NCBI RefSeq assembly: GCF_018861125.1
Contig: NZ_JAHKQN010000013.1
Span: forward strand, 536,599-600,598
Direction of reading: 5' to 3'
DNA: 64,000 bases
Origin: Cellulophaga baltica
Lineage (GTDB): Bacteria; Bacteroidota; Bacteroidia; Flavobacteriales; Flavobacteriaceae
The notes beneath the pieces are model-generated. The model was not told the origin of the DNA. It searched no databases and worked only from the letters and a program-made list of their open reading frames with translations. Positions 36,315 through 52,634 of the stretch are shown piece after piece; position 1 is the stretch's first letter; each line of letters opens with the position of its first letter. The translations under genes and the position numbers were made by a program.

Positions 36315-36363
36315 GATTATTCCACTAAATACTTGATGTATCAAAATTAACATTCGAAAGATA

Positions 36364-36385
36364 CAAAAATACGTATAAATACGTA
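36364..36385 (-). promoter_or_regulatory. nitrate-regulon operator and -7 box before the nitrate reductase gene
   Basis: On the plus strand 36370-36385 is the palindrome TACGTATAAATACGTA. Read on the minus strand the lower half-site runs straight into a perfect -7 box as TACGTATTTTTG (36364-36375). Transcription would begin near 36357 with a 43-base leader. A second perfect box TAATTTTG lies at 36342-36349 with the palindrome centred about 42 bases upstream of its start, so the choice of start site is open. The plus-strand gene at 36522 lies on the other side. Confidence 0.7.
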
Positions 36386-36521
36386 GTTAAAATTTAATAA
36401 TTATTAACCGTTAGTTTTACTAGTATGATAAATAAATGGCTTTAAAAACATTCATTCCTATTTTCAAAAAAGACTTTTTAAAGTTAAATTGCCAATAAGG
36501 AAAATAGCTACAAAACTGAAA

Positions 36522-37277
36522 ATGAATAAACCAACCACCATTAAAGAAGTATTAGTTGCTTTAGATGAAATTATCGAAGAATCAATTGTAACTAACAGTC
36601 GGTTAGGCTTTTTTGCATATTTATACAGAAGAACTACTGCTGAAATACTTAAAGAAGTTGAACTAGGTAGTTTTGAGAATAATGAACAATTACAACGTAT
36701 GGATGTTGCATTCGCTAATCTTTACATTGATGCCTACCACGATTATAAAGCTGGCAAACCCGTAAGTAAATGTTGGGCTTACTCTTTTGTAAGTGCAGAT
36801 GAAAAACTAAGTATAATACAACATATTTTATTGGGAGTAAATGCCCATATAAATTTAGACCTTGGTATTGCAACTGCCGCAACTATGAAAGGTAAAGATA
36901 TTAGTGATATAGAAAACGATTTTAATAAAGTAAATGATATCTTATTTAATATTACTAATGAAATGCAAAACCGATTAAGCAGGGTTTCTCCATTACTATT
37001 TATACTTGATATGCTTATAAAAAATACTGATGAGCAAATTATAGATTTTAGCATGCGAAAAGCTAGGGAGCAATCATGGAATAGCACTAACTATTTATGG
37101 ACATTGGACGATGAGCAGTTACCAGAGGCAATAAGCAACCTTGATTTTATAGTTTATAAATTTGCGACAATTTTAAAAAACCCTAAATCAATATTCATCA
37201 AGTTCGCATTAAAATGTATAAGTTTTTTTGAAGAAAAGAACATCAGCAAAATAATTAACAAGCTAAAAGAGGATTAA
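36522..37277 (+). CDS. DUF5995 family protein
   Basis: The ATG at 36522 gives 251 residues; a TTG eleven codons upstream is less likely. The sequence is helical, with FFAYLYRRTTAEILKEV near 35, QHILLGVNAHINLDLGIATA near 110 and a C-terminal helical bundle, matching the DUF5995 family. There is no signal or membrane helix. It diverges from the nitrate reductase operon and is convergent with the NarL-like regulator gene four bases away. Its role in nitrate use is not shown. Confidence 0.78.
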   Translation: MNKPTTIKEVLVALDEIIEESIVTNSRLGFFAYLYRRTTAEILKEVELGSFENNEQLQRMDVAFANLYIDAYHDYKAGKPVSKCWAYSFVSADEKLSIIQHILLGVNAHINLDLGIATAATMKGKDISDIENDFNKVNDILFNITNEMQNRLSRVSPLLFILDMLIKNTDEQIIDFSMRKAREQSWNSTNYLWTLDDEQLPEAISNLDFIVYKFATILKNPKSIFIKFALKCISFFEEKNISKIINKLKED

Positions 37278-37280
37278 AGT

Positions 37281-37949
37281 TTAAACCAAGTTAAACTCTT
37301 GTGCTTTTTTAGATAAATCGATAAGGTTTTTAACTTCCATTTTACGCATTAAATTAAAACGATGTGTTTCAACAGTACGCTTACTATTTTCTAATTGTTC
37401 AGAAATTTGTTTGTTTGTTAAACCAGAAAGTATCAATTCTAGGATTTGAAGTTCTTTACCCGTTAAATCAAAAGGATTATCGCTATTTTTTGCAGGTTTT
37501 GATGGTTTATCTACACTTTTACCTCCATTTAAGAGGTTATTTACAAGTACATTTGAAATATCACCACTAAAATACTTACCACCCTGCTGTACCGTACGTA
37601 TAGCTTTAATAAACTCTATTTTACCAGTATCTTTTAGTAAATAACCACTAGCACCTGCACTTACTGATTTTAATATATACTCTTCAGAATCATGCATTGA
37701 AAGTATAATTGCCTTGACATTTGTACCTTGTTTGTTTAGCATACTAACTGCATCAATACCATTCATTACTGGCATTCGAATATCAATAATTAAAAGATCT
37801 GGTTTTTTTTCATTTACCATATCTATAGCTTCCTTTCCATTAGAAACCTCAGCTACAACTACTAAATCTTCTTCCTCTTCAAGTAAAGCTCTTATTCCAT
37901 CTCTAACTAAAGAATGATCATCTGCTAAAACAATTTTTGTGGTTTTCAT
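37281..37949 (-). CDS. NarL/FixJ-type response regulator of the nitrate island
   Basis: The 222-residue protein has a receiver domain (1-122) with VLADDHSLV, phospho-acceptor LLIIDIRMP and the lysine in YLLKDTG. A linker and a LuxR-type helix-turn-helix follow (about 158-222, LTNKQISEQL and SKRTVETHRFNLMRKM). No kinase adjoins it, but a NarX-like kinase lies at 52665-54482 in the same island, so they are probable partners. TACGTA repeats stand before its own gene. Its recognition helix differs from E. coli NarL (E and T in place of K188 and V189), so identical site preference cannot be assumed. Confidence 0.9.
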   Translation of the reverse strand: MKTTKIVLADDHSLVRDGIRALLEEEEDLVVVAEVSNGKEAIDMVNEKKPDLLIIDIRMPVMNGIDAVSMLNKQGTNVKAIILSMHDSEEYILKSVSAGASGYLLKDTGKIEFIKAIRTVQQGGKYFSGDISNVLVNNLLNGGKSVDKPSKPAKNSDNPFDLTGKELQILELILSGLTNKQISEQLENSKRTVETHRFNLMRKMEVKNLIDLSKKAQEFNLV

Positions 37950-37968
37950 TAAAAAATAAATATTTATA

Positions 37969-38005
37969 CAAATATAAAATAAAAAATACGTAGTTAAAAT
38001 ACGTA
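37969..38005 (-). promoter_or_regulatory. TACGTA operator pair and -7 box before the NarL-like gene
   Basis: Two TACGTA half-sites lie at 37987-37992 and 38000-38005, 13 bases apart. A perfect -7 box TATATTTG lies at 37969-37976 on the minus strand, giving a start near 37962 and a 13-base leader. The first half-site also reads TACGTATTTTTT, one base from the TACGTANTTTTG pattern of the other nitrate promoters. Confidence 0.6.
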
Positions 38006-38022
38006 TTTTTCTAATAAAAATT

Positions 38023-38060
38023 AAACTCTTTTATTGCTAATTTAGGCAAGAAAAGAGTTT
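38023..38060 (-). terminator. probable terminator of the endonuclease gene
   Basis: A perfect ten-base stem AAACTCTTTT/AAAAGAGTTT with an 18-base loop follows the endonuclease stop by about 13 bases. On the minus strand it continues AATTTTTATTAG. The loop is long, so the call is moderate. Confidence 0.55.
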
Positions 38061-38073
38061 AATTAAAAAGTTA

Positions 38074-39513
38074 TTATATTGAAGTACTAGTGTCTACAAT
38101 AGACTCTATAGTGTTTTCAATAGAATCAGGAATATTTTCAAAAAAATCATATCCGGTAATTGCTTCTATATCATCAACTGATGTTCCAAATTCTGTCCAA
38201 TCACTACTTATATTTTGATCATTAGGCACACTAATAGCAATCATACGTGTTGCTGTTGTTACCCGATTAATATCATTAGAACCATTTGGTAATATTAAGG
38301 CTACTTTCCAAAAAGTTTCAGGAACCGTAATATTATCTTCATAAATATAATCAAAAGAACCGTTTGAACCTGTACCACCAACACCTATAACTCCTGCTAT
38401 AATGTGTACCTCATGACCTTCATCAATAACCTCTCTTAAATAATCCTCAAAATTAGCCCATATACCTTGGTTATTATCTGGAGATTGAGGTACAATATTT
38501 GTCATATAATATGTGTTTTCATTTGAGTCATCATCACCATTTCTATCAGCTGAAGGGCAAAGGTGACCTCTATCAAAACCAGTATTTGTATAATTTGAAG
38601 TTGATGCAGTAAAAAAGTTGCTTGGTAATGATGCATCTTGTTTAAAACAATTGCATCTATCTGAACTACCCGTCCAGGCTGTACTTAAATGCCAACTTAC
38701 CCAATTTGCAGTTCCTTTAGAATTATTATATGATAAAACATAATCTGTATTATCAAGATAATAATTATCTGAGTCTGTACTTGCGTTAGAAGGGTTTCCA
38801 AAAGTTATATTACTATCTTTTGTCGCAATAGTTGAATCTTCAGAAGATGTAGAAACGCTCATTTCAATATTATCAAAATTTATTCTATTTGAACTTCCTG
38901 ATAATTTTATAATTCCATAACGTACACTTTCAAATTCATCCACATCATAAGTAACCGTGTTTAAAGTTGTTGAACTAGATGTTATTATATCTCCAAGTGT
39001 TAACCATGTATCACCACTATCATACGAAACAACTAATTGCCATGTTGAAGAACCGTCTGAACCATAGACTGCATGCCTAATACTTAATGACTCAACACCA
39101 TCAGTCATATCAAAATTCATTAGTAAATGCCCAGTATTTCTTATCCTTACTGATTTAGAACCGTATTTTCTATCATTAGATAATGATCCAATTAAGGCAT
39201 CCGAAAGGTTCCAACTACCTGAATTTTCAATAGTAATATCGGCTTCACTGTAGCTTGATTTTGTTGCGTCTTCAAAATCTTCAATAAAACCTTCTACTCC
39301 CTTTGCCGTATGATTATGTTTAAAATACCCCTCGTTGTCATACAAATACAAAGTTGTAGATAATGAACCCGTAATTATTAAACCTTCGGTTGTTGTCGAA
39401 GTAGTTTCTGAATCATCATAATAATTTTCTTCATCATTATTTGTACAGCCTGTAAGTAGACCTGTTACAATCAGTAGCGCAATAAATCTCTTTAAAAAAA
39501 TAGTTTTTGTCAT
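38074..39513 (-). CDS. DNA/RNA non-specific endonuclease lipoprotein
   Basis: The 479-residue protein has a lipoprotein signal (lipobox LLTGC, cysteine 22) and a beta-rich domain (about 60-225) with YGSKSVRIRNTGHLLMNFD resembling secreted carbohydrate/adhesion modules. A C-terminal NUC1-type nuclease follows, with TGFDRGHLCPSADR carrying the catalytic DRGH and YYMTNIVPQSPDNNQG. It would cut DNA and RNA outside the cell. It lies between the porin gene and the NarL-like gene on the same strand but has its own spacing (149 bases) and a terminator on each side, so it is probably separate from the nitrate operon. Confidence 0.9.
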   Translation of the reverse strand: MTKTIFLKRFIALLIVTGLLTGCTNNDEENYYDDSETTSTTTEGLIITGSLSTTLYLYDNEGYFKHNHTAKGVEGFIEDFEDATKSSYSEADITIENSGSWNLSDALIGSLSNDRKYGSKSVRIRNTGHLLMNFDMTDGVESLSIRHAVYGSDGSSTWQLVVSYDSGDTWLTLGDIITSSSTTLNTVTYDVDEFESVRYGIIKLSGSSNRINFDNIEMSVSTSSEDSTIATKDSNITFGNPSNASTDSDNYYLDNTDYVLSYNNSKGTANWVSWHLSTAWTGSSDRCNCFKQDASLPSNFFTASTSNYTNTGFDRGHLCPSADRNGDDDSNENTYYMTNIVPQSPDNNQGIWANFEDYLREVIDEGHEVHIIAGVIGVGGTGSNGSFDYIYEDNITVPETFWKVALILPNGSNDINRVTTATRMIAISVPNDQNISSDWTEFGTSVDDIEAITGYDFFENIPDSIENTIESIVDTSTSI

Positions 39514-39602
39514 TTCGTCGATTATTTAATAATAAATAACGAAATTATTTTTTGTAAATTAAATAATAATTAATAGAATTTTAAATTAATAAAAAGAAAA
39601 AA

Positions 39603-39636
39603 CCACCACAATTACTTATAAAAGTAATTATGATGG
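39603..39636 (-). terminator. terminator of the nrt-porin operon
   Basis: A 15-base imperfect stem (CCACCACAATTACTT with AAGTAATTATGATGG) and a four-base loop are followed on the minus strand by TTTTTTC. It lies 26 bases after the porin stop codon. Confidence 0.85.
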
Positions 39637-39662
39637 CTGAATAGAAAACTAAATATAAGTTC

Positions 39663-40943
39663 TTATTTAGCTGTGTTTAAAAACTTTGGCTTGATGGTTA
39701 ACATTGCCCATGCCCAGTTTTGTCCACCAGCTGCTGCAGCAGCAGTAGTACCTTTTAATTCATACATACCATCACTAGCAAACATTTGAGAATAACCTAT
39801 TGCAAGTCCGAAACCTTTAAATTTCTTTGCATAAACTAAATCAACTTCTGTACCTAATGATTTTTCTCCACTTGCTAATTCTTGTTCTCCACTAAAGTTT
39901 AATGCTTTTACTAATAAGCTTGAAGTTTCATTTAAAGTAAACTTAGCACTTGCATGAACATCAAATAAACCGATTGAATTTGCATGATTACCTACGTAGA
40001 AATAATCCATAAACCCGTTAAACTTGTGGTTTGTACCATATAAGGGAAAGAACGCACCTGTTTCACCAGCATCACCATCATTTCCACTAATAATTTCAGT
40101 ACCCAAACCTAAAGCAACTTTACTTGAAGCTTTATACGTTAAATCTAAACTTGCTAAATATGCGCCTTTTACTTTTAAACCACCTTGTCTCTCACCAGTT
40201 TGTACAAAAAAGTTACCTGCTAAACCTAAGCTTCCTTTTTTATAGTTTAAATGTGTACCAATAGTTTGTAAACTATTTACACCATCAGGTGTTAAACCAT
40301 CTTCTTCATAAGCTTGAAAACCATTATTTAAAACTAACAAACTACCTGAAAAAGCATCCCAACTTTGTTTCATATAAATGTATTGCATTGCTTTATATGA
40401 GAAAAAACCTGTTGTTGTATATTCTGTTCCAACAGATTGAAAACCTGCAGGGTTATCAAAATCTTGATTAAATGCTAAACCTAAGTCAAAAAGAAATTTA
40501 CCTTTTTTATATTTAAGTAATGCAGCATCATGGTTTCTACCTTGTTGTGCCCAATTTAAACCTCCAAATATTCTTTGATCGTCATATGAAATTACTTGTC
40601 TACCTAATTTTGTAGAAAAACCTTCACCTAATTTAATATCTGCCCATGCTTCAAACACTGCAAATGAATTATTTTCATCATCTGGAAGAATTTGTCTATT
40701 CTCACCCCAAACCATAACATCTTGTAAACTCACATAAACCTTATAAGATTCATCTTGGTAGCCAAAATTAAGTCTTGCTCTTGTTGATGTTGCAAAACCA
40801 GCATCTGCGCCGTCAGCAATTACATTACCATATCCATGGCGGTATTCTGTTCTTGGTCTAAATTCTCCATCAATAGTAATTTGTGCATTAATAAATTGAA
40901 CAGAGAATAAAGCAACTGCGATTAATAAGTTCAGTTTTTTCAT
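39663..40943 (-). CDS. alginate-export-type outer-membrane porin of the nitrate operon
   Basis: The 426-residue protein has a signal peptide ending QFINAQ and then a beta-barrel of the alginate_exp type, with EFRPRTEYRHGYGNV, STRARLNFGY and LGRQVISYDDQRIFGG. It ends with an outer-membrane terminal strand (WAMLTIKPKF). It begins 30 bases after the second nitrate ABC ATPase gene and precedes the operon terminator. Its position makes an outer-membrane nitrate/anion channel the likely job, rather than alginate export. That role is inferred from context. Confidence 0.82.
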   Translation of the reverse strand: MKKLNLLIAVALFSVQFINAQITIDGEFRPRTEYRHGYGNVIADGADAGFATSTRARLNFGYQDESYKVYVSLQDVMVWGENRQILPDDENNSFAVFEAWADIKLGEGFSTKLGRQVISYDDQRIFGGLNWAQQGRNHDAALLKYKKGKFLFDLGLAFNQDFDNPAGFQSVGTEYTTTGFFSYKAMQYIYMKQSWDAFSGSLLVLNNGFQAYEEDGLTPDGVNSLQTIGTHLNYKKGSLGLAGNFFVQTGERQGGLKVKGAYLASLDLTYKASSKVALGLGTEIISGNDGDAGETGAFFPLYGTNHKFNGFMDYFYVGNHANSIGLFDVHASAKFTLNETSSLLVKALNFSGEQELASGEKSLGTEVDLVYAKKFKGFGLAIGYSQMFASDGMYELKGTTAAAAAGGQNWAWAMLTIKPKFLNTAK

Positions 40944-40973
40944 TTTAAAAAAATTTAGTTGTTTTTTTGTTTT

Positions 40974-41801
40974 TTAGTGTTCTAGAAAATCAATTAAGTG
41001 TTTTCTATAAGTATAATAATCAGGGTGATCAAGTACTGCTTTTCTAGTTCTTGGTCTTTCAAAATCTATGTTTAGAACATCCCCAATTTTTGCTTTTGGT
41101 CCACTAGTCATCATTACTACGCGGTCTGCTAAAAAAATAGCTTCATCAACATCATGGGTAATCATGACAGCTGTGATTTTTTCTTTATTCCATATTTCAA
41201 TTAGAATATCTTGAAGTTCACCACGCGTTAAAGAATCGAGCATTCCAAAAGGCTCATCTAATAATAATACTTTAGGTTTTATAGCGAAGGCTCTTGCGAT
41301 ACCTACACGTTGTTGCATTCCTTGAGATAATTCATTTGCTTTTTTATGAAAAGCACCATCTAAACCTACTTTGTGTAAATAATACTTAGCAATATCAGTT
41401 CTTTGTGCTTTTGTAGCATGAGGGAATACTTGGTTTACACCTAATAACACATTTTGCAATGCTGTCATCCAAGGCATTAAACTTGGCGATTGAAAAATTA
41501 CACCACGATCTGGCCCCGGACCTTTTACCGGGTTACCAAGCACAGCAATATTTCCTCCAGATATTGGGTTTAAACCCGCAATCATTGATAACATTGTTGT
41601 TTTTCCACAACCTGAATGCCCAATGATAGTTACAAACTCTTCCTTCATAATTTGAAGGTTCAAGTTTTCTAAAACTACATAGTCACCTTTTGGAGTAGGG
41701 TACACCTTTTTCAAATCTTTAAGGTCAAGCATTACTTTTGACGGAAATACAATTCCATTTTCTGAATAAGTATTGGTGTTTTTTATAGTACTTGTGTTCA
41801 T
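40974..41801 (-). CDS. nitrate/sulfonate-type ABC ATPase (NrtD-like)
   Basis: The 275-residue ATPase has a Walker [10 protein letters not shown] near 58, a signature LSQGMQQR near 158, Walker B LLLDEPFG and the switch ITHD. It shares the TauB/SsuB/NrtD pattern ([17 protein letters not shown]). It lies 13 bases after the first ATPase gene in the nrt operon. Unlike cyanobacterial NrtC it carries no C-terminal binding-protein-like domain. It powers uptake through the NrtB-like permease. Confidence 0.92.
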
Positions 41802-41814
41802 ATCGTAAATTGAT

Positions 41815-42660
41815 TTAAAGTGATCCTACAAAGCTTTTTGGTTCTAAATCTGGCAATACATATTCTACTTCTGAAACCGATTTTCTTTCGTCACCAATAG
41901 TCATTAAATAAGCGATAATTTCATTTCTAGTTTTCATGAAGTTTTCATTGTCATTCAAAGCAGTTTTATCACGAGGACGGTCAATCTCTATTTTGAATTC
42001 TGGCCCTAATGTGGCGTTTGGCCCTGGCTTTAAAGGAATGATTCTATCTGCCATATAAATACCTTCATCAACATCATTCGTAATAAGTAATGCTGTACGT
42101 TTATCTTGATTCCAGATGTTTAATATTTCATCTTGTAAATTACCTCTTGTCAATGCATCTAACGCTCCTAAAGGTTCATCCATAATAATCATTTCTGGTT
42201 TCATTGCCAATGCTCTTGCCACTGCAACACGTTGGCGCATTCCACCAGATAATTCTTTTGGTCTTTTATTAATTGCATGTGAAAGCCCCACCATTTCAAC
42301 GAAGCTTTTTACACGCTCCATTATTTCTGATTTACTCTCTTTTGGGAAAGCTTCAGTAACTGCCATTGCAACATTTTGACCTACAGTTAACCATGGTAAT
42401 AAAGAGTAATTTTGAAAAATTACACCACGTTCATGGCTTGTATCTACAACTGGTTCGCCTTTAAATAAAACTTCACCACTTGTTGGTTTTATAAGTCCGT
42501 TAATTAAATTTACTAGAGTAGTTTTGCCACTACCTGTAAAGCCAACTATCGCAACAAATTCACCCTCTTCAATAGTAAGATTGATATTAGACAATACCTC
42601 TGTACTATCTTTTCCTGTTCCGTATGTTTTACAAACATTTTTTAGTTCTAAATATGCCAT
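41815..42660 (-). CDS. nitrate/sulfonate-type ABC ATPase (NrtC/D-like)
   Basis: The 281-residue ATPase has a Walker [10 protein letters not shown] near 42, a signature LSGGMRQR near 143, Walker B IIMDEPLG and a switch LITND, where the usual histidine is replaced by asparagine. That change suggests this subunit contributes a degenerate catalytic site while the second ATPase keeps histidine. It lies 23 bases after the permease gene. It has no NrtA-like C-terminal regulatory domain. Confidence 0.9.
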
Positions 42661-42683
42661 GTTATAGAGTTTTAATATTTAGA

Positions 42684-43784
42684 TTAAATTCCTTCATTCT
42701 TGTTAAATGATACCATTTGTTGTACTGTTAGCATTAACCTATCTAACAGAAAACCTATAATACCAATCACGAACATGGCAACGATTATTTTTGAATTTGA
42801 ATCGTTTGCTCCGTTTTGGAATTCTTCCCAAACGAACAAACCTAAACCAGGACTTTGTGCAAGTAATTCAATTGCAATTAATACCATCCAAGCTACAGAT
42901 AAAGTAATACGTAGACCTGTGAAAATCAGCGGTAATGATGATGGTAATATTACTTTGAATACTTTTTGAAAAGTACCAAGCTTTAAAACTTTAGCTACAT
43001 TTATATAATCTTTATCAACCGAAGCTACACCCATTGCTGTGTTAACTAATGTTGCCCACATGGCACATAAACCAACACTTATAAATGAAATAACAAAAGC
43101 ATTATCAGAGCTTTTACCTATGTAGATAGTTTTTACAATCATAAACACAAGTAAGTACCAAACTACTGGAGAAACTGGCTTAAAAATTTGAATAAACCAA
43201 TTGAAAGCGCTTTTAAGAGTTGGACTTAAACCTATAATTATACCTATTGGAACTGCAATTAATAAGGCTAACAAAAAGCCCGCAAATACCGTTTTAATAC
43301 TTGTTAGTACCGTATCAATAAATGATGCTCTACCTGTGTAAACTATTGGGGCTTTACCTTTTGCTATCAATTTTTGGTTTGTTGCTTCCATTTTGGTTGC
43401 AAAAGCATCTTTTTTCTCTTTAATAATATAATGATCTGCTATTAAAGATTGTAATGATGCCCATACTTGTGTTGGTGAAGGCAAAGTATTTGGTTGACAC
43501 CCACTTTCACCAGACTCAATACAAGCACGCTCTGCATCAGCCGCTGCTTGCCCTTGTTCTGTAAGTGCTTTTTCAACTTTATAATCAGCTTCTTTATTGT
43601 ATAGCGCTTTAGAACCTAAATGCCATAAGCCTATGAATAATAGGATAGAAAGAATTGTAATACCGGTTTTTTTAAAACCGCCTAAAAAATTGACTTTCCC
43701 TAATTTCAACTTTAAAAATTCAGTTATTGGCTTCATAATATTAGGTGCTTGACTTTCTGTTTTTAATGTAATTTCCTGTTTCAT
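42684..43784 (-). CDS. nitrate-type ABC transporter permease (NrtB-like)
   Basis: The 366-residue protein has a first membrane helix near 40-58 and a long soluble stretch to about 155 (EADYKVEKALTEQGQAAADA). The binding-protein-dependent transport domain follows, with AGFLLALLIAVPIGIIIGLS and the ATPase-contact loop around VLKLGTFQKVFKVILPSSLP. The insert after helix one is longer than in cyanobacterial NrtB and is shared by Bacteroidota NrtB-like proteins. It forms the inner-membrane channel for the nrt operon. Confidence 0.92.
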   Translation of the reverse strand: MKQEITLKTESQAPNIMKPITEFLKLKLGKVNFLGGFKKTGITILSILLFIGLWHLGSKALYNKEADYKVEKALTEQGQAAADAERACIESGESGCQPNTLPSPTQVWASLQSLIADHYIIKEKKDAFATKMEATNQKLIAKGKAPIVYTGRASFIDTVLTSIKTVFAGFLLALLIAVPIGIIIGLSPTLKSAFNWFIQIFKPVSPVVWYLLVFMIVKTIYIGKSSDNAFVISFISVGLCAMWATLVNTAMGVASVDKDYINVAKVLKLGTFQKVFKVILPSSLPLIFTGLRITLSVAWMVLIAIELLAQSPGLGLFVWEEFQNGANDSNSKIIVAMFVIGIIGFLLDRLMLTVQQMVSFNKNEGI

Positions 43785-43823
43785 TTTGCTTTGCTTTTTA
43801 GGTTGTTAAGCGATAACTAAACT

Positions 43824-45197
43824 TTAATCTTTATTACCAATAGAAAAGCTATTGATATACCCAATTGGATCTTTAGCATCATAACTTGTACCGTCAATAA
43901 AGTCTGCAGATGCTGGTTTATAACCATCAGTATCAGGAATATCTGACTCTGGTATTTTACCTTCAGCAACTAATAAATCTGCCGCTTTTTTCCATACATC
44001 TGGTCTATAAATATCTTTGATAGTTGTTTCATACCAATCAGCAGATTTAGCTTCAGGAATTTGCCCCCATCTACGCATTTGTGTTAAGAACCAAATACCA
44101 TCAGAATAAAAAGGATATGTTGCGTTATACTTATAAAAAACATTAAAGTCTGGCATATCACGTTTATCACCTTTTTCAAACTCAAAAGTACCTGTCATGG
44201 AATTTGCTAATACTTCTTCTGGTGCACCTACGTATTGAGACATCGATAATATTTTTACAGCTTCAGCTCTGTTTGATGGTTCATCTAACCACTTACCTGC
44301 ACGTATTAATGCTTTTGTAACTGCTACAGCTGTATTAGGGTTCTCTTCAACAAACTTTTTAGTCATTACAAATACTTTTTCTGGGTTATTTTTCCAGATG
44401 TCATAATTTGTAACAACAGGAACACCAATACCTTTAAATACCGCTTGTTGGTTCCAAGGTTCACCTACACAATACCCGTAAATAGTACCTGACTCTAGAG
44501 TAGCTGGCATTTGTGGTGGAGGCGTAACTGATAACAATACTTCAGCATCAATTTGACCTTGAACATTATCAGCCGTATACATACCTGGGTGAATACCCGC
44601 AGCTGCTAACCAATATCTAATTTCATAATTGTGTGTTGATACAGGGAAAACCATTCCCATTTTAAAAGGCTTACCACTATTTTTATACTCCGTAACTACT
44701 GGTTTTAAAGCATCTGCCTTAATTGGATGAACTGGCTTACCATCATCTCCTGTAGGAACATTAGGCTTCATTTTAGACCAAACATCATTTGAAACAGTAA
44801 TACCGTTCCCGTTTAAATCCATAGAAAAAGGAGTTACAAGTTCTGCTTGTCTACCAAAACCAGCGCCCGCTGCAATTGGTTGTCCTGCTAACATATGTGA
44901 GCCATCTAATTGACCATCAATTACACGATCTAAAACATTTTTCCAGTTTGATTGTGCTTCAACAGAAACATAAAGACCTTCTTCTTCAAAAAACCCTTTT
45001 TCTTTTGCAATGGCTAAAGGTGCCATATCTGTTAACTTAATAAAACCAAATGTTAATTGTGGCTTTTCAATTTCAAGGGTTGCAATTTCTTGTGGTTCAG
45101 AAGCTACTTCCTTTGCTTTCTTTTCTTTCCCTCCACATGCGCTTAAAAGAAGCGCTGTAAAAAATGAAAAGGTAAATTTTTTAAGTACGTTTTTCAT
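43824..45197 (-). CDS. nitrate-binding lipoprotein (NrtA-like)
   Basis: The 457-residue protein has a lipoprotein signal with lipobox LLLSAC (cysteine 21) and then a periplasmic binding domain with [20 protein letters not shown] and the [16 protein letters not shown] stretch typical of NrtA/CmpA. It captures nitrate (or nitrite) and hands it to the NrtB-like permease. The start codon lies 21 bases from the operator at 45218-45233. It heads a five-gene operon ending with the porin. Confidence 0.93.
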
Positions 45198-45217
45198 GGT
45201 TATTAATTTAAGTGTTC

Positions 45218-45248
45218 TACGTATTAATACTTATTCGTAGCAAATATA
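45218..45248 (-). promoter_or_regulatory. operator and -7 box before the nrtA-like gene
   Basis: The site TACGTATTAATACTTA (45218-45233) is one base from the palindrome seen before the nitrate reductase gene. On the minus strand a perfect -7 box TATATTTG lies just upstream of it (45241-45248), so the operator would fall immediately after the transcription start near 45234. This placement differs from that at the other nitrate promoters. Confidence 0.55.
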
Positions 45249-45709
45249 TAAGTAGTCTTCATTTCATTTTATGAAATTGCACATAACTAAACATCTTTTT
45301 ACACCATTAGTAAAACTGCTAAAAAACATATTTAAGATGTAACTTATTAAAATTCAATTTATTAAATATAATACGTAGTAGCACTTACTTAAATCATATG
45401 AGTACGTATTTATAAAAAAGTTTACTAAAAATAATTTCTGAGGAAACAGAAACCTATATACTTTTAGAAAGAAGTTATTTTTCTAAAGTTATAGCTATTC
45501 CAAATTAGAAAGCCCTGAATAATTTTTGCCATTACCAAATGGATCTTTCCCTCCATCGAGGTATAATTTGAGCTTTCAAAATAGTACTCACAAGAAATCA
45601 CCTATATTAATCTACAAGATTTAGGGTTGAACAATTATACTCATAATTAAATAAGTAACTATAATTAGATGGCAAGGAAAAAATTACTTGAAATAACATA
45701 TCAAGAAAA
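45249..45709. other. long intergenic region with isolated operator half-sites
   Basis: No gene can be supported here. TACGTA half-sites occur at 45372-45377 and 45403-45408. The minus strand of 45495-45620 is open in two frames (one ends YLDGGKDPFGNGKNYSGLSN), which looks like a gene remnant or a dispersed repeat rather than a functional gene. The remainder shows only AT-rich sequence. Confidence 0.5.
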
Positions 45710-46468
45710 TTAACTGTCTAAGTAGTAATTGTGCTCTGAAATCTCTTGTTTAAGTAGTGCTAAGTTCACAATACTTATTTTTTTACCTTTTGCACTAATA
45801 AGGTTTTCTTTTTTTAAAGCAGAAAAAATTCGAATAACTTGCTCCTCTGTGGTGCCCGCATAATCTGCATACTCCTTTCTACTAAGTGGTAAGTTTAGAA
45901 AATCATTTTTAGTATTGAATTTTCTATGTATATATAATAAGGTATCAACTATACGCTCACGAACGGTCATTTGTGAAATAGTTTTAACTTTAGCTTCACT
46001 CTTATTTAATTCGTTTGCATAAAATAACATTAGGTCATACGTAAAACTTGGATCAGTTTTAAGTACCTCTTGTAAAATAGCTTTTGAAAAATAGCAAAGC
46101 ACTGTATCTTCTAATGCAATGGCACCAATTGAGTAATACTCCTCTGTACCAAAACCTCTATGTCCGATTATTTCTCCTTCGTTTGCAAACCTTACAATTT
46201 GTTCACGGCCATTAATTCCTGTTCTAAAAACTTTTACTTTACCTTTTAAAATAAAAAAGAGTCCGTTTACGGGCGCACCTTCAATAATAAATTGCTGTCC
46301 CTTTCTACATCTAATTTCAGTTTTTTTATGTGAAAAATCAAAGACAGATGGTGTTGATAGATTTTTTTTAATTAAACAAGTATCATTCACACAAGTACCA
46401 CAAGAAACTCCTTTAATTGAAAATTTTCTAGCGTTCGAATTAATAGTATGTTGGACTGAAGTTCTCAA
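45710..46468 (-). CDS. Fnr/Crp-family regulator with an N-terminal cysteine cluster
   Basis: The 252-residue protein has cysteines at 23, 26 and 31, with a further one at 125 that matches the position of the fourth Fnr ligand; residue 54 is also cysteine. A cyclic-nucleotide-type beta-roll follows (about 50-150), then a Crp-type helix-turn-helix (about 200-235, SRKEYADYAGTTEEQVIRIF). This suggests an oxygen- or NO-sensitive Fe-S regulator. The start is TTG: an in-frame TAA of the narK-like gene lies nine bases upstream and no other start precedes the cysteines. It is the second gene of the narK-like operon. Confidence 0.85.
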   Translation of the reverse strand: MRTSVQHTINSNARKFSIKGVSCGTCVNDTCLIKKNLSTPSVFDFSHKKTEIRCRKGQQFIIEGAPVNGLFFILKGKVKVFRTGINGREQIVRFANEGEIIGHRGFGTEEYYSIGAIALEDTVLCYFSKAILQEVLKTDPSFTYDLMLFYANELNKSEAKVKTISQMTVRERIVDTLLYIHRKFNTKNDFLNLPLSRKEYADYAGTTEEQVIRIFSALKKENLISAKGKKISIVNLALLKQEISEHNYYLDS

Positions 46469-46478
46469 ATATATTTTG

Positions 46479-47885
46479 TTATTTATCTGCCAATTGCATG
46501 TTTAAATTTTCTTCTTCTACTTTTTCCTCAGATACTGCAAATTTAATTGCTAATGATAATAGTGATGCTAGCAATATACAACCACCAATTACAAAGTAAC
46601 CACTAGAAACAGCTGTTGCTGAAGCAACTGTTTGAGCTGTTTTTATAGCTTCTTCACCCAAAGCATTATTAGCAGAAATAGCAGCACTTTCAGCAACTGC
46701 AGATTTCGATTTTAATAAAATAGCTGCTAAAAAAGCACCAACGTTACCACCTGCGCCAACAATACCTGAAATAGATCCAATGGCTTTTTTATTTATAAAA
46801 GGCACTACTGAAAAAGTTGCTCCTTCAGCCATTTGTACAGATAAGCTAAAGAGTATTAAAAATATCATTCCTACAACCAAACTTGTTGTAGTTGAAAAAA
46901 CAGCCAACACAACACCTTCAATAGCTAACATTACTGCTAAGAATATAACTCTACCTCTTAGCCCTTTCATCTTTCCGAAGACATCTCCGAAGTAGCCACC
47001 TAGTGTTCTAGCAAATATGTTCATTAAAGCAAATGAAAGGACTAGATTACCAGCAAAAGTACGCTCCAAACCAAATCTATTTTGAAGGTAATCATCCATA
47101 GTACCGTAAACCGTAAGTTCAATACCAAAGCATGAAGCGTAAACTAAAAATAAAATCCAAACTCTGTAATCTTTTAAAGTACTAGTAAATGAAACTTCGT
47201 CCTTTTTTAAAATTGGCATTTCACCTTTCTCTTTTAGTTCTTTATAATTCCCTTCAGGAGTATCTTGAGTGAAAAAATAATAAACAAGTCCCATACAAAA
47301 ACATAAAACACCTGCAATTACCATTGAATATCGCCAAGCAATATTATCAGCAACACCAAAACTTACTACAGCCGCCGCAATTAAAGGCATACCTAAACGG
47401 TTTGCACCACCACCAAGGTTTCCCCAACCTGCAGAGGTAGCATTTGCAGTACCAACGATACTAGGGGCAAACATTATTGAAGTGTGAAATTGTGTTATTA
47501 CAAATGATGCACCTATAAAACCTATAAACAACCTGCATACTAAAAACTGTAAAGGTGTTTGTACAAAACCTAATAATATTACAGGTATTGCACCAAATAC
47601 AAGTAAATACGTATAACATAATCTTGGGCCATATTTATCACATAATTTTCCTATTAATAAACGTGCAAATACAGTACCTGAAACGGCTAATATTATAGAG
47701 TTCCATTTTTGCGAAGGTGTTAATCCTAAATCTTTAACTACATCTGGCATAAAAGGAACAATTCCAAACCAAGAAAAAAAGCATAAGAAAAATGCTATTG
47801 AGGTAATCCAAAATGTTCTAATCGGAATACTTTTAAAATTAGTTAAATTTAATTTTGTGGCTTTTCCTGAGGTAGAATTTTTCAT
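46479..47885 (-). CDS. NarK-type nitrate/nitrite MFS transporter
   Basis: The 468-residue protein has 12 membrane helices and NarK/NrtP motifs: FFLCFFSWFGIVPFMPDVV, the GFIGASFVITQFHTSIMFAP segment and a conserved GWGNLGGGANR in helix five. The second half has GIVGAGGNVGAFLAA. It moves nitrate in or nitrite out across the inner membrane. The operator array at 47930-47961 stands before it, and the Fnr/Crp-like gene follows after 10 bases. With the ABC system it gives two independent nitrate uptake routes. Confidence 0.93.
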   Translation of the reverse strand: MKNSTSGKATKLNLTNFKSIPIRTFWITSIAFFLCFFSWFGIVPFMPDVVKDLGLTPSQKWNSIILAVSGTVFARLLIGKLCDKYGPRLCYTYLLVFGAIPVILLGFVQTPLQFLVCRLFIGFIGASFVITQFHTSIMFAPSIVGTANATSAGWGNLGGGANRLGMPLIAAAVVSFGVADNIAWRYSMVIAGVLCFCMGLVYYFFTQDTPEGNYKELKEKGEMPILKKDEVSFTSTLKDYRVWILFLVYASCFGIELTVYGTMDDYLQNRFGLERTFAGNLVLSFALMNIFARTLGGYFGDVFGKMKGLRGRVIFLAVMLAIEGVVLAVFSTTTSLVVGMIFLILFSLSVQMAEGATFSVVPFINKKAIGSISGIVGAGGNVGAFLAAILLKSKSAVAESAAISANNALGEEAIKTAQTVASATAVSSGYFVIGGCILLASLLSLAIKFAVSEEKVEEENLNMQLADK

Positions 47886-47929
47886 AGTGTCTGAATTAAA
47901 GAAATTAATGTAGCTTTCTTGATATGAAT

Positions 47930-47961
47930 CAAAAATACGTATAAATACGTATAAATACTTA
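47930..47961 (-). promoter_or_regulatory. triple operator array and -7 box before the narK-like gene
   Basis: Three half-sites stand exactly 10 bases apart: TACGTA at 47936, TACGTA at 47946 and TACTTA at 47956. On the minus strand the lowest one runs into a perfect -7 box as TACGTATTTTTG (47930-47941), giving a start near 47923 and a 38-base leader. A further single TACGTA lies at 47978-47983. Confidence 0.7.
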
Positions 47962-48113
47962 TTTTTAAAGACAAAAAGACAAATTTATACGTAATTTTAA
48001 TTATATATTAGTTTTCTACCTCATATATTATTGAAAATATAATTGAAGACAGTAAACAGATATAATTCAATATTCTTAGGAATATTAAACTTAGCTAATA
48101 ATAAATAAATCCA

Positions 48114-48169
48114 CCGATATATTGGTCAAAATCTGGATCAAGGCAGAACCAAAATAATGACCATATCGG
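48114..48169. repeat. imperfect inverted repeat in the narK-like/cobA gap
   Basis: The left arm CCGATAT-ATT-GGTCA (48114-48128) pairs with the right arm TGACCATATCGG (48158-48169) around a 29-base loop. The element sits 25 bases past the cobA stop inside the 308-base gap 47886-48193. It lacks a T-tract, so it is a poor terminator. It may be a dispersed repeat, a remnant, or an RNA structure. Apart from the operators the gap holds nothing else I can support. Confidence 0.5.
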
Positions 48170-48193
48170 CTTGAAAATTATGTATAGAAATAA

Positions 48194-48976
48194 TTAAAGG
48201 TTAGAATTTAAAACACGTTGCACTTCTTCTTCATAGAAAGATGGGTGTTCCGCAACAACATCACCAATAACAATTACACCTGGCTTAGTTATATCAATGG
48301 TATTTAGCACACTAGTGTAGTTTTGTAACATGCCAGTGACACATGTTTCTGCTGTTAAAGTTCCGTTTTGAATAATAGCAAATGGCGTTAATGTATTTCT
48401 GTATTTTGAAACTTCTTGGGCTATTTCGCTAAACTTACGAATACCCATAAGTATCACCATAGTTGCCGATGATTGTGCAGCCAATTGTAAATCATCTGAA
48501 AAAGAACCATCTTTTTTTGTTGCTGTCATCACCCAAAAACTACTACTAATCCCTCTTCTTGTAACAGGAATACCTTGACTTGCTGGTACAGCTACAGCAC
48601 TAGTAACACCTGGAATTACTGTAATAGGTATACCAAAAGATTCTACGTATTCAATTTCTTCACTTGCTCTTCCGAAAACAAAAGGATCACCTCCTTTTAA
48701 ACGTACTACATGTCCGTAAGTATAGGCGTTTTCGACAATTAGTTTATTAATATCATCTTGTGTGTAAGAATGTTCACTACAACGTTTACCTACGTATATT
48801 TTAGGTACACTATCATCAATTTCATTTAAAAGTTGATTGCTAATCAATGCATCATATAAAACTACTGATGCTTGCTGTAAAGCCTTGAACCCTCTTAAAG
48901 TAATAAGGTCACTACTACCAGGGCCAGCGCCGACTAATGTTACTTTTGGTTGAATAGATACTGTCATAATTTTCAT
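48194..48976 (-). CDS. cobA: uroporphyrinogen-III C-methyltransferase (SUMT)
   Basis: The 260-residue single-domain methyltransferase has LVGAGPGSSDLITLRG near the start, VRLKGGDPFVFGRASEE near 85 and VIPGVTSAVAVPA near 115, the S-adenosylmethionine and substrate motifs of SUMT. It makes precorrin-2 for sirohaem, the cofactor of nitrite reductase. It lacks the CysG dehydrogenase/ferrochelatase domain, so that step is encoded elsewhere. It diverges from nirB across a shared operator region. Confidence 0.95.
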   Translation of the reverse strand: MKIMTVSIQPKVTLVGAGPGSSDLITLRGFKALQQASVVLYDALISNQLLNEIDDSVPKIYVGKRCSEHSYTQDDINKLIVENAYTYGHVVRLKGGDPFVFGRASEEIEYVESFGIPITVIPGVTSAVAVPASQGIPVTRRGISSSFWVMTATKKDGSFSDDLQLAAQSSATMVILMGIRKFSEIAQEVSKYRNTLTPFAIIQNGTLTAETCVTGMLQNYTSVLNTIDITKPGVIVIGDVVAEHPSFYEEEVQRVLNSNL

Positions 48977-49006
48977 TTTTAAGACCTATAATTAATAATA
49001 TGACAA

Positions 49007-49074
49007 CAAAACTACGTATTTATTTTTATAAAAATAGTAAATATATACGTAATTATACGTAATATTGCTACGTA
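49007..49074. promoter_or_regulatory. divergent operator region of cobA and nirB
   Basis: Four TACGTA sites lie at 49013, 49046, 49056 and 49069; the last three are spaced 10 and 13 bases. On the minus strand the first reads TACGTAGTTTTG (49007-49018), a perfect -7 box for cobA with a leader of about 24 bases. On the plus strand 49056-49067 reads TACGTAATATTG, one base from the same pattern, for nirB with a leader of about 19 bases. Confidence 0.68.
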
Positions 49075-49092: not shown

Positions 49093-51606
49093 ATGAAAAC
49101 TATAATAGTTGTAGGAAATGGAATGGTTGGTTATAAGTTTTGTGAAAAATTTATGGCTAAAGAAGGTAGCAAATCTTTTAAACTCATTGTTTTTGGTGAA
49201 GAGCCAAGACCTGCTTATGATAGAGTTCATTTAAGTGAGTATTTTGAGAACAAGAATGCTAAAGCTTTAGAAATGGCTCCTCGTACTTGGTACGAAGAAA
49301 ATGAAATAGAATTAATTACTAATGTTAGAGTAAGTGACATCAGTAGAAAATCTAAAACTATTGTAACGACTAAAGATGAAAAGTATACTTACGATTATTT
49401 GGTATTAGCAACAGGTTCATCAGCTTTTGTTCCTCCAATTAAGGGAATTGAAAAAGAAGGCGTATTTGTATACCGTACTATTGAAGATTTAGACGATACC
49501 ATGAACTATGTTGCTAAATTAAAAGCTGAAGGAACACAAAAAAAAGCAGCTATATTAGGTGGAGGACTTTTAGGTTTAGAGGCAGCTAAAGCATTAGTTG
49601 ATATGGGACTTGAAACTTCCGTTGTTGAATTTGCTCCTAGATTAATGCCAAGGCAATTAAATAACGATGCTAGTAAATCTTTACAAACCAAATTAGAAGC
49701 CTTAGGTATTAAGATATTATTAAGTAAAGCTACGCAACAATTAACTGGTGATAGCTTTATGACAGGAATGCAATTCTCGGAAGATGAAACTGTACCATTT
49801 GATATGTTACTAGTTTCTGCCGGAATTAGACCTAGGGATGAATTAGCTAAAACCTGTGAATTAGAAGTAGGTACAAGAGGTGGTATTGTTGTTACTAATG
49901 ATATGAGAACTTCTGATACTGATATTTTTGCTATTGGTGAATGTGCTTTATTAAACAATATGATTTATGGCTTAGTTGCTCCTGGTTATGATATGGCAGA
50001 AATTGTTGTAGAACAATTACTAGGCGATAAAGAGGCTAATATGCCAACTGAAATAGATATGTCTACCAAACTTAAGTTAAGTGGTATTGATGTAGCTAGT
50101 TTTGGTGATGCATTAAACGAAAATGATGGTTTAGAAATTGTTTACGAGAATGCTCTTCAAGGTATTTACAAAAGTATTATTGTAGATAAAGAAGGAAAAT
50201 CACTATTAGGTGGTATTATGGTTGGTGATGCTTCTGATTATAGTATGTTGCACCAAATTTTCTTAAACGGAATGGCAATTCCTGAAAACCCTGAACAATT
50301 AATATTACCAGCTGGTGCAGATGGAGGTTCTTTTGGTGATGTTATGGATTTACCGAATGAAGCACAAATATGCTCTTGCGAAAATGTCACCAAAGGACAA
50401 ATTTGTGGTTCTATTGAAAGTGGTGAATCTAAAGATCTAGCCGATGTTGTTAGCTGTACTAAAGCAGGTACTGGTTGTGGTGGTTGTAAGCCAATGGTAA
50501 AAGACCTTACTGAGGCTACTTTAAAATCTTTAGGTATTGAAGTTAAGGACTCTGTTTGTGAACACTTTGATTATAATCGTCAAGATTTGTACAAAATAAT
50601 TCAAGTAAAAGGGTATGAAACTTTTGATGAAGTATTAGATAACCACGGAAATGGTGGTCATGGTTGTGAATTATGTAAACCTCTTGTAGCTTCATTAATG
50701 GCAAGTATCAATGCTGATACTGCTAATAAAGAATATGCTATACAAGATTCAAATGATCGATTTTTAGCAAACATTCAGCGTAATGGCACCTATTCTGTAG
50801 TCCCACGTGTTCCTGGTGGAGAAATTACACCAGATAAGCTAATTGCTCTTGGAGAAATTGCTAAAAAATATGATTTATATACCAAAGTAACTGGTGGTGT
50901 ACGTATCGATTTATTTGGTGCAACTTTGAACCAATTACCATTAATTTGGAAAGAATTAATTGATCATGGCTTTGAAAGTGGTCATGCATACGGTAAATCT
51001 TTACGTACAGTAAAAACTTGCGTAGGTTCTACATGGTGCCGATACGGAATGGATGAGAGTGTAAGTTTTGGTATCGAATTAGAAAATAGATATCGAGGAA
51101 TACGTGCCCCTCACAAAATTAAAGGTGGTGTTTCTGGTTGCATTCGTGAATGTGCGGAAGCCCGTGGAAAAGATTTTGGTTTAATTGCTGTTGAAGGTGG
51201 TTGGAACTTATACCTTGGAGGTAATGGAGGGGCTACACCACGACATGCTGAACTATTTGCAGAACAGATAGATAATGAAACGGTAATTAAATATATTGAC
51301 CGTTATTTAATGCTGTACATGCGTACCGCAAAACCTCTACAAAGAACAGCAGCATGGCAAGAACGTTTAGAAGGTGGACTTGATTATTTAAAAGAAGTAA
51401 TTATAGAAGATAAATTAGGGATTGCAGAAGATTTAGAAAATGAAATGCAAACACTAGTTAATAAGTTTGAATGCGAATGGACACAAGCTATTAACGATCC
51501 AGAAATGATGAAGCGTTTTAATCACTTTGTAAATAGCGATGATGATGATGATAACTTAGTATTTGTTCCTTTAAGAGAACAAAAAATGCCTGAAAAATGG
51601 GTCTAA
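49093..51606 (+). CDS. nirB: nitrite reductase large subunit
   Basis: The 837-residue protein has an N-terminal FAD/NAD reductase part (1-about 405, starting IIVVGNGMVGYKFCEKF, with GGGLLGLEAAKAL). A BFD [2Fe-2S] domain (near 415-480, ICSCENVTKGQ and GTGCGGCKP), a second BFD-like segment (near 495-545) and the sirohaem/Fe4S4 domain follow, with TCVGSTWCRYG and GGVSGCIRECAEARG carrying the cluster cysteines. It reduces nitrite to ammonium with NADH in the cytoplasm. It heads the nirBD-DUF4202-kinase-DUF7009 operon. Confidence 0.97.
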   Translation: MKTIIVVGNGMVGYKFCEKFMAKEGSKSFKLIVFGEEPRPAYDRVHLSEYFENKNAKALEMAPRTWYEENEIELITNVRVSDISRKSKTIVTTKDEKYTYDYLVLATGSSAFVPPIKGIEKEGVFVYRTIEDLDDTMNYVAKLKAEGTQKKAAILGGGLLGLEAAKALVDMGLETSVVEFAPRLMPRQLNNDASKSLQTKLEALGIKILLSKATQQLTGDSFMTGMQFSEDETVPFDMLLVSAGIRPRDELAKTCELEVGTRGGIVVTNDMRTSDTDIFAIGECALLNNMIYGLVAPGYDMAEIVVEQLLGDKEANMPTEIDMSTKLKLSGIDVASFGDALNENDGLEIVYENALQGIYKSIIVDKEGKSLLGGIMVGDASDYSMLHQIFLNGMAIPENPEQLILPAGADGGSFGDVMDLPNEAQICSCENVTKGQICGSIESGESKDLADVVSCTKAGTGCGGCKPMVKDLTEATLKSLGIEVKDSVCEHFDYNRQDLYKIIQVKGYETFDEVLDNHGNGGHGCELCKPLVASLMASINADTANKEYAIQDSNDRFLANIQRNGTYSVVPRVPGGEITPDKLIALGEIAKKYDLYTKVTGGVRIDLFGATLNQLPLIWKELIDHGFESGHAYGKSLRTVKTCVGSTWCRYGMDESVSFGIELENRYRGIRAPHKIKGGVSGCIRECAEARGKDFGLIAVEGGWNLYLGGNGGATPRHAELFAEQIDNETVIKYIDRYLMLYMRTAKPLQRTAAWQERLEGGLDYLKEVIIEDKLGIAEDLENEMQTLVNKFECEWTQAINDPEMMKRFNHFVNSDDDDDNLVFVPLREQKMPEKWV

Positions 51607-51641: not shown

Positions 51642-52019
51642 ATGAATATAATTTCAGATAAATATAAAACCGTAAAGCCAGAAGATGTTAACGTATGGTT
51701 TAAAGCAGCGCCTGTTAGTTCATTTCCTAAAGATGGTGGCGCCTGTGTTAAATACAAAGATTTACAGATTGCTGTATTTAATTTTAAAAGACTAAATAAA
51801 TGGTATGCTTGTCAAAACTTATCCCCTGAAAAAGAAGAAATGGTTTTAAGCAGAGGTATGATTGGTGATCACAAAGGTATACCAATGGTTGCATGCCCGT
51901 TACACAAAAAAACTTTTTCTTTAGAAAGCGGTGATAATTTGAATGGTGATTTAGATGCTATTGCAACATATCCTGTAAAAATAGAAGATGATATTGTGTA
52001 TATTGGTTTTTCTGAATAG
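51642..52019 (+). CDS. nirD: nitrite reductase small subunit
   Basis: The 125-residue protein has the Rieske-like NirD fold, with the phrase VACPLHKKTFSLESGD. Of the Rieske ligands only CPLH is complete; the first pair reads CQN, so it probably binds no cluster, as is usual for NirD. It lies 35 bases after nirB and pairs with it in cytoplasmic nitrite reduction. Confidence 0.94.
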   Translation: MNIISDKYKTVKPEDVNVWFKAAPVSSFPKDGGACVKYKDLQIAVFNFKRLNKWYACQNLSPEKEEMVLSRGMIGDHKGIPMVACPLHKKTFSLESGDNLNGDLDAIATYPVKIEDDIVYIGFSE

Positions 52020-52043: not shown

Positions 52044-52634
52044 ATGGCAGCATCAGATAAATTAGAAAAAGCATTTCAACTTTTTGATAAAGCAAATGAG
52101 CAAGACCCAAACAAAGAATACTTTAATGGGAAAAGCTATGCGAAAGAAGTGCTTTATGCTATTAGAATGAGTGAAAAATTAAATGATTTTGCTCCTGATG
52201 CTTCTGAAGTGTTACAATTAACAGCTCGTTGCCAGCACATCTGCAGATGGGAAATAGCTCGTGATTCATACGAAATGAATAGAGCTGGTTATCTTAAATG
52301 GCGACAAGACCTTAAAAAATTTCATGCTAAAAAAGCTGGTGAAATTTTGAAAGAAGTTGGCTATAATCAAGATACTATTGATAATGTTGCTTTTTTACTT
52401 GAAAAAAAACAACTAAAAAAAAACGAAGAAACACAAACATTAGAAGATGTCATTTGTTTAGTGTTTTTAGAGTTTTATTTTGAACCTTTTGCTAAAAAAT
52501 ATAGTGAAGAAAAATTAATTGATATTGTTCAAAAAACATGGCGTAAAATGTCAGAAAAAGGACAAAAAGCCGCTTTAAAACTTCCTTTATCTGAAAGTTC
52601 CTTAGCACTAGTTGGCAAAGCTTTACAAGGTTAA
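52044..52634 (+). CDS. DUF4202 family protein in the nir operon
   Basis: The 196-residue helical protein matches DUF4202, with LTARCQHICRWEIARDSYEMN near 58, YLKWRQDLKKFHAKKAGEIL near 83 and a histidine-rich helical core that hints at metal binding. It has no signal or membrane segment. It lies 24 bases after nirD. DUF4202 genes often accompany nirBD in Bacteroidota and other bacteria, but its biochemical role is unknown to me. Confidence 0.82.
   Translation: MAASDKLEKAFQLFDKANEQDPNKEYFNGKSYAKEVLYAIRMSEKLNDFAPDASEVLQLTARCQHICRWEIARDSYEMNRAGYLKWRQDLKKFHAKKAGEILKEVGYNQDTIDNVAFLLEKKQLKKNEETQTLEDVICLVFLEFYFEPFAKKYSEEKLIDIVQKTWRKMSEKGQKAALKLPLSESSLALVGKALQG

Follow-up and report, generated by a model that had tools for sequence, protein, structure and literature searches.

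A TACGTA-type site pair joined to the predicted −7 promoter element in a nitrate gene island of Cellulophaga baltica

A 64,000-nucleotide stretch of the Cellulophaga baltica genome (Flavobacteriaceae, Bacteroidota; contig NZ_JAHKQN010000013.1, positions 536,599 to 600,598; hereafter, the window) carries an island of nitrate and nitrite genes whose intergenic regions contain repeated copies of the word TACGTA. It was originally predicted that these repeats mark a nitrate regulon, with a NarL-like and a Crp/Fnr-like protein, both encoded in the island, as possible binders. Which protein reads the repeats, and how does it act on the promoters that carry them? The regulon prediction is supported by the analysis reported below: a tight pair of repeats is restricted to the island in the source genome and is placed before nitrate genes in relatives. 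On balance, the island probably constitutes a nitrate-assimilation regulon with a two-component system of its own, whose response regulator would act on the site TAMGTA-N4-TACKTA and activate promoters in the presence of nitrate.

TACGTA pairs in the island and in related genomes

The repeat coordinates listed earlier for the regions upstream of the nitrate reductase (nasC), NarL-like, nrtA and narK genes and between cobA and nirB were all verified. TACGTA occurs 36 times in the window versus 9.4 copies expected. The 1551 bp of island intergenic DNA contain 14 copies (in 1000 shuffles, the mean was 0.36 and the maximum 3), and the remaining 3807 bp of intergenic DNA in the window have none; the other 23 palindromes that share its composition are present in the island intergenic DNA at 0 to 2 copies each. 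Chance or composition as the cause of the repeats is rejected by this excess of TACGTA over expectation, shuffles and other palindromes.

The genome-wide motif scan that had been called for with the prediction was performed by pattern searches of the 3.92-Mb source genome. All three copies of the tight pair TACGTA-N4-TACGTA lie inside the island, and TACGTA pairs with a gap of 4 or 7 were found only there. With any gap from 0 to 30 allowed, 15 pairs were retrieved (seven in the island) versus 12 for a reversed-word control. Thus, repeats equally common before unrelated genes, which would speak against a regulon, are not seen for the tight pair, and the count of loosely spaced pairs is close to that of the control. 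The spacing had been described as always 10 or 13 bases; both values do occur, together with 31, 32 and 33 in the window. In 121 loci (genomes partly repeated, each identical context entered a single time), two TACGTA words most often lie 10 (119 cases), 33 (67), 43 (46) or 31 (25) bases apart, followed by spacings of 23 (24), 42 (23) and 13 (19). The spacings over these loci track the helical repeat, at 10, 20-23, 30-33 and 42-43.

A search for nasC in 299 genomes of the same family gave matches in 91 at 1e-100. The gene is near full length (at least 65% identity) in 66 of the 91, in some with in-frame stops, and one further nasC is split over two contigs. For 40 nasC-bearing relatives, we retrieved a 20-kb stretch at the start of nasC; together with the window, they form a set of 41 genomes. 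Fourteen relatives carry the exact sequence TACGTATNNATACGTA at a distance of 20-52 bp ahead of their nasC match. When one mismatch to TACGTA-N4-TACGTA was allowed, and genes with a match start after residue 60 or a gap shorter than 20 bp were excluded, the site was found upstream of nirB in 26/35, nrtA in 15/19, narK in 16/26, nasC in 23/41 and narL in 17/38 cases, with a shuffle expectation of at most 0.04 per gene. It also precedes 16 of 19 cobA genes, in a region common with nirB. No such site was found upstream of narX (0/14), DUF4202 (0/21), nirD (0/35), algE (0/23) or nrtB (0/18), whose upstream gaps are shorter (mean 30-89 bp). Pairs in which TAAGTA and TACTTA halves were also allowed precede nirB in 34/35, narK in 22/26, nasC in 25/41, nrtA in 16/19 and narL in 14/38 cases; nasC lies directly behind narK in many relatives.

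A second set comprised 80 loci found through the sensor kinase gene of the island (from Cellulophaga, Maribacter, Zobellia, Arenibacter, Flavobacterium and others), 77 of them with a testable nirB promoter. A pair is present within 120 bp in 75 of the 77 and is fused to the −7 promoter element in 72, where shuffles expect 0.03; two of the 72 fused pairs are non-consensus (TAAGTA-N4-TAAGTA, in the Saprospiraceae loci L136 and L140). Since the two sets overlap (identical regulators), they are not independent of each other. Four Saprospiraceae or Lewinella loci lack the consensus pair; three of them have (T/C)AAGTA-N4-TGC(T/G)TA upstream of TAGTTTTG at nirB, and L134 is without a nirB promoter. 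Two loci come from other families: L199 has pairs before narK and nirB, the nirB pair being without a −7 match, and L200, which lacks a 10-bp pair, carries TACGTA words before nasC and nirB, those at nirB being 11 bp apart and fused to TATTTTTG. Among 345 genomes drawn from the phylum, the kinase is present in 17, 15 of which belong to Flavobacteriaceae. The other genome of the genus Cellulophaga in the sample has neither nasC, nor the kinase, nor the site; the island is therefore acquired or lost in one piece.

Fusion of the site to the −7 element

Bacteroidota promoters are described in excerpts of PMC7366714 as having TAnnTTTG at −7 and TTTG near −33; according to the same excerpts, the −33 motif was not identified in Flavobacterium johnsoniae. 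In 52 of 123 pairs (offset 0), the site ends in the very TA with which the −7 element starts; the next single offset accounts for 8. The original prediction, right about the repeat sites, had overlooked both this fusion and the paired kinase.

The promoters that are fused to the site mostly lack a −33 element. A TTG 17-26 bp before the −7 element is present in 4 of 90 site-fused promoters versus 43 of 114 control promoters of the same loci; at exactly 23 bp, there is none in site-fused promoters versus 26% in controls. This count requires an exact TAnnTTTG and excludes the window as well as controls that have a half-site close by. The loss is not forced by the site itself, since about 9 bp separate the pair from the TTG position upstream of it. 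Pairs are located downstream of the −7 element in 7 of 38 narL and 10 of 19 nrtA upstream regions, two extra half-site words being allowed in this count, and a TTG 15-29 bp before the −7 element accompanies 6 of these 7 narL pairs and 3 of these 10 nrtA pairs.

The consensus of the site is TAMGTA-N4-TACKTA, with GTA-N4-TAC as the core. When up to two free mismatches are allowed, half 1 changes mainly at its third base (C to A) and half 2 mainly at its fourth (G to T), a pattern common to nirB, narK, nasC, nrtA and narL. In all 72 promoter-fused nirB pairs, the fourth base of half 1 is G and the third base varies. Since the pair, logo and −33 counts allowed the half-site words TACGTA, TAAGTA and TACTTA only, bases 3 and 4 alone could vary in them, and the free-mismatch count is the freer test; the TAnnWTTG columns of the nirB logo are likewise fixed by the −7 filter.

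The positions of the variable bases bear on one proposed mode of recognition. NarL sites of E. coli are 7-2-7 inverted heptamers TACYYMT, with TAC outermost, and the repeats had been matched to this geometry. The variable bases give the opposite polarity, with GTA-N4-TAC and not the outer TAC being constant, so a literal NarL 7-2-7 site is rejected. The earlier match arose because TACGTA is its own reverse complement, and perfect copies therefore fit any polarity.

Candidate binder and direction of control

The promoter-coupled pattern TAMGTANNNNTACKTANNWTTG was searched for in the 299 family genomes. It is present in 66 of 67 kinase-positive versus 12 of 232 kinase-negative genomes (Fisher 1e-52, kinship ignored), and the single kinase-positive genome that lacks it is 76% complete (G271). 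A reversed control pattern matches 14 of the 299 genomes, and the 12 matches in kinase-negative genomes are thus close to background level. The source genome contains three matches, all within the island. Both the kinase and a response-regulator orthologue were found in 41 of the 41 island genomes, and a Crp/Fnr orthologue (E < 1e-80) in 24. The sites, their consensus, the joining to the promoter, the missing −33 element and these co-occurrences are direct observations; the identity of the binder, nitrate as the signal and the direction of control are inferred.

The Crp/Fnr protein might bind the site as a 5-4-5 palindrome, ACGTA-N4-TACGT, as had also been suggested. Its gene belongs to the island, the geometry is compatible, and crp genes of relatives carry the site as an autoregulator's gene could: the pattern stands directly in front of crp in at least 8 of the 24 orthologue-bearing genomes, and in 7 further genomes. 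However, the orthologue was not found in 17 of the 41 genomes, and all 17 keep the promoter-coupled site, six of them with the exact site before nasC. A role as general binder is rejected by this co-occurrence, and we regard such binding as highly improbable. Since the crp-less genomes keep the site and crp genes carry the pattern, the Crp/Fnr protein is likely a target, i.e., a second-tier member of the regulon.

Away from the island, 20 pattern matches were found in 20 further regions, with region L180 giving none. Seven have crp downstream; the others precede genes for BBP2 porins (three), alginate-export-like porins (two), nirB (one) and, in single cases, a small helix-turn-helix (HTH) protein, a thioesterase, a Sdh_cyt-like protein that narrowly misses the Pfam cut-off and a protein labelled protease-like by eye. 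Three of the 20 have no gene in range.

The best candidate binder is the NarL-like response regulator, as its presence in every island genome examined suggests. Its phosphoacceptor and receiver core (D10, D11, D56, K106) and the helix core SKRT-x-E-x-HR are invariant in 19 of 19 aligned sequences. The kinase matches the Pfam families PilJ, PAS, HisKA_3 and HATPase, with no HAMP or GAF match. Its P-box, INVAGRQR, keeps the nitrate-binding G-x-x-R of the NarX/NarQ type (motif as given in excerpts of PMC8199190), so the protein would be a nitrate sensor of the NarX class. A P-box-type motif is present in 31 of 33 kinase frames and missing from L060 and L079; in the L060 kinase, the sensor part reads as replaced by membrane helices.

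Excerpts of PMC4999443 give GTAMGTAG and TAAGTAATTTCCCTTA as sites of FixJ, and GTAGTTTCCC as a second class obtained by systematic evolution of ligands by exponential enrichment. The half-site TAMGTA is contained in GTAMGTAG, and in half-site and 6-4-6 layout the island site is closer to these FixJ sites than to NarL sites; this does not hold for the GTAGTTTCCC class. The DNA-binding domain of the regulator alone scores 39.3 bits with FixJ and 31.0 with NarL, while EsrB, SsrB and chain 1yio score higher. The likeness to a half-site of the regulator's own relative (PMC4999443, excerpts) also argues against a binder coded elsewhere, for example a second Crp paralogue, with the island two-component system acting elsewhere. 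A distant Crp relative (28-35% identity) is indeed present in 34 of 41 genomes, and kinase, regulator and pathway are inseparable by phyletic pattern; the three promoter-coupled matches of the source genome, however, all lie in the island, and we consider a binder of this kind improbable.

The regulator occupying the site would work as follows. The membrane kinase would sense nitrate and signal to the NarL/FixJ-family regulator, which may bind two inverted half-sites one helical turn apart, often with extra half-sites in helical phase. At nirB, narK and nasC, and at crp in relatives, the final TA of the downstream half-site is often also that of TAnnTTTG. When nitrate is present, the phosphorylated regulator would occupy the promoter spacer, substitute for the missing −33 contact and turn the operons on. 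At narL (several relatives), a pair downstream of the −7 element may serve autorepression, and at nrtA, braking within mixed control; braking at both genes is suggested by that position. We tentatively propose that this nitrate two-component regulator of Bacteroidota may activate within the core promoter, from a site that is fused to the −7 element and takes the place of −33, unlike NarL/FixJ activators that bind upstream, and that the arrangement is kept across Flavobacteriaceae and looser in Saprospiraceae and two other families.

The main rival explanation is repression at all promoters: the same regulator on the same site would block RNA polymerase over the −7 element without nitrate, and nitrate would release it. 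The pairs downstream of −7 at narL and nrtA are in keeping with this, all the more as 6 of the 7 narL pairs have a TTG 22-29 bp before −7. The mostly missing −33 TTG, however, fits promoters that need help. In addition, it is usually the phosphorylated form of NarL/FixJ-type regulators that binds, and NarX-type kinases are as a rule activated by nitrate, so repression without nitrate requires inverted logic. We therefore consider general repression unlikely.

Several observations weigh against activation by the island regulator in response to nitrate. A site overlapping −7, as the main pair does, is the usual position of a repressor. Even with degenerate halves allowed, no pair precedes narL in 24/38, nasC in 16/41, narK in 4/26 and nrtA in 3/19 cases. 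In five of the 41 genomes (G237, G002, G082, G228 and G180) the kinase match begins only at about residue 194, so that the nitrate-sensor part is lost or replaced, and in G030 the P-box was not found; the promoter pattern is kept in all six. Since kinase, regulator and near-full-length nasC share genomes, the site is not attributable to the regulator apart from the pathway. Taken whole, the regulator is nearer to NarL: its best solved structure is NarL (112 bits), and its NCBIfam scores are 143 for NarL and 79 for FixJ, both below cut-offs. The FixJ likeness is therefore limited to the DNA-binding domain. Lastly, regulators with helix T[VI]ETHR go with CG in 36 of 56 sites (AT in one) and those with T[ATV]EVHR with AT in 35 of 51 (CG in one), sums that leave out a single TIEAHR locus and count some genomes twice. 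On the AT side, 8 of the 35 genomes whose helix is T-type reach at least 0.5, and the covariation, though strong, corresponds to a single split on the regulator tree, in a comparison from which seven loci without a promoter-fused consensus site were dropped (four of them Saprospiraceae or Lewinella). It thus gives no independent support and was dropped as proof.

The proposed system resembles E. coli NarX-NarL/NarQ-NarP in its P-box periplasmic sensor, HisKA_3 kinase, GerE-type regulator, nitrate and nitrite targets and heptamer-like half-sites. It differs in that the kinase contains PAS without a HAMP or GAF match, the site has the GTA-N4-TAC core and lies in the core promoter, the recognition helix is different, and the targets are assimilatory, those in E. 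coli being respiratory. FixL-FixJ/FixK of Rhizobiales shares a similar recognition helix and half-site and the placing of a response regulator over a crp/fnr-family gene; there, the signal is oxygen and the targets are nitrogen-fixation genes. The FixJ footprints at fixK are upstream (−69 to −31, as cited in excerpts of PMC4999443) and not fused to the −10/−7 element as here. Of the same class are the nitrate-sensing kinases narHK/narRR of Bacteroidetes, which in excerpts of PMC8199190 have a P-box sensor, no HAMP or GAF and, in some cases, PAS, and lie among putative nitrate genes. The text of that paper contains neither the word promoter nor heptamer, and the 2021 review lists the role of the kinases in different organisms as open; the site and regulon proposed here are what differs from that account. 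The kinase class is thus already known (PMC8199190); the promoter layout is unusual for a nitrate two-component system. No Bacteroidota nitrate regulon motif was present among the literature matches listed, which comprised titles and abstract openings with thin coverage of subscription journals.

With the site, the nitrate-sensing kinases of Bacteroidota would gain a concrete DNA target and target genes. If true, a regulator inside a TAnnTTTG promoter without a −33 box would be a handle on activation with the unusual Bacteroidota σ factor. How flavobacteria, which are important degraders in coastal and algal habitats, switch to nitrate matters for the nitrogen cycle.

Island genes and neighbouring features

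Coordinates of the sites and genes are collected in Table 1. Further gene calls in the island are DUF5995, an Endonuclease_NS-family gene, an Alginate_exp porin and DUF4202. The true start of the fused nitrate reductase is probably 10-13 codons or so downstream of the call.

Table 1. Sites, predicted −7 elements and genes of the island (window positions)
Feature	Position	Strand	Basis or remark
Fused nitrate reductase (NasC-like + NirB-type N-terminal half)	32784..36353	−	Gene call, domain search
Predicted −7 element TATTTTTG, TA common to nasC site	36364..36371	−	Pattern match
Putative regulator site TACGTATAAATACGTA before fused nitrate reductase gene	36370..36385		Sequence, genome-wide pattern search
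NarL/FixJ-family response regulator, candidate site binder	37281..37949	−	
Predicted −7 element TATATTTG of response-regulator gene	37969..37976	−	Sequence
Half-site pair, 13-bp spacing, before response-regulator gene	37987..38005		
nrtB permease + two nrtC/D-type ATPases	40974..43784	−	
nrtA, nitrate-type ABC transporter substrate-binding protein (NMT1_2)	43824..45197	−	
Site (minus strand TAAGTATTAATACGTA) before nrtA, downstream of predicted −7	45218..45233		
Predicted −7 element TATATTTG of nrtA	45241..45248	−	TACTTA half-site adjoins at 45249-45254
Two single half-sites, 31 bp apart, nrtA-crp gap	45372..45408		
Crp/Fnr-family regulator behind narK	45710..46468	−	
NarK-family nitrate/nitrite transporter	46479..47885	−	296.7 bits, below cut-off 311.7
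Predicted −7 element TATTTTTG, TA common to narK site	47930..47937	−	Pattern match
Three half-sites in 10-bp register before narK	47936..47961		
Additional half-site upstream of narK	47988..47993		
cobA, uroporphyrinogen-III C-methyltransferase (siroheme)	48194..48976	−	
nirB promoter upstream half-site, 33 bp before main pair	49013..49018		
nirB promoter main site pair TACGTAATTATACGTA	49046..49061		
Predicted −7 element TAATATTG, TA common to nirB site	49060..49067	+	Pattern match
nirB promoter third half-site, 13 bp from second	49069..49074		
nirB, nitrite reductase large subunit	49093..51606	+	
nirD, nitrite reductase small subunit	51642..52019	+	
Sensor kinase: PilJ-type periplasmic sensor, P-box INVAGRQR, PAS, HisKA_3, HATPase	52665..54482	+	

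A rubredoxin-bearing protein (31333-32772) follows the nitrate reductase and has a weak NIR_SIR match below the cut-off. The Endonuclease_NS-family gene (38074-39513) is located between the regulator and porin genes, and the matches listed for the 20-kb stretches of the 40 relatives include none to this gene. DUF4202 (52044-52634 in the window) lies between nirD and the sensor kinase gene in 75 of the 80 kinase-found loci and was not found in the other five, of which four are from Saprospiraceae or Lewinella and one is a truncated contig; its product is a candidate partner in nitrate assimilation.

Alginate-export-like or BBP2 outer-membrane barrels are site-bearing in some relatives or are island members (39663-40943 in the window; L161, L175, L170, L171 and L179), which suggests dedicated nitrate porins. 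The small HTH protein behind a far pattern match (L168:2033-2467, genome G127) has HTH_1 as its only Pfam match; it reads like a ModE N-terminus, and a link to molybdenum is possible.

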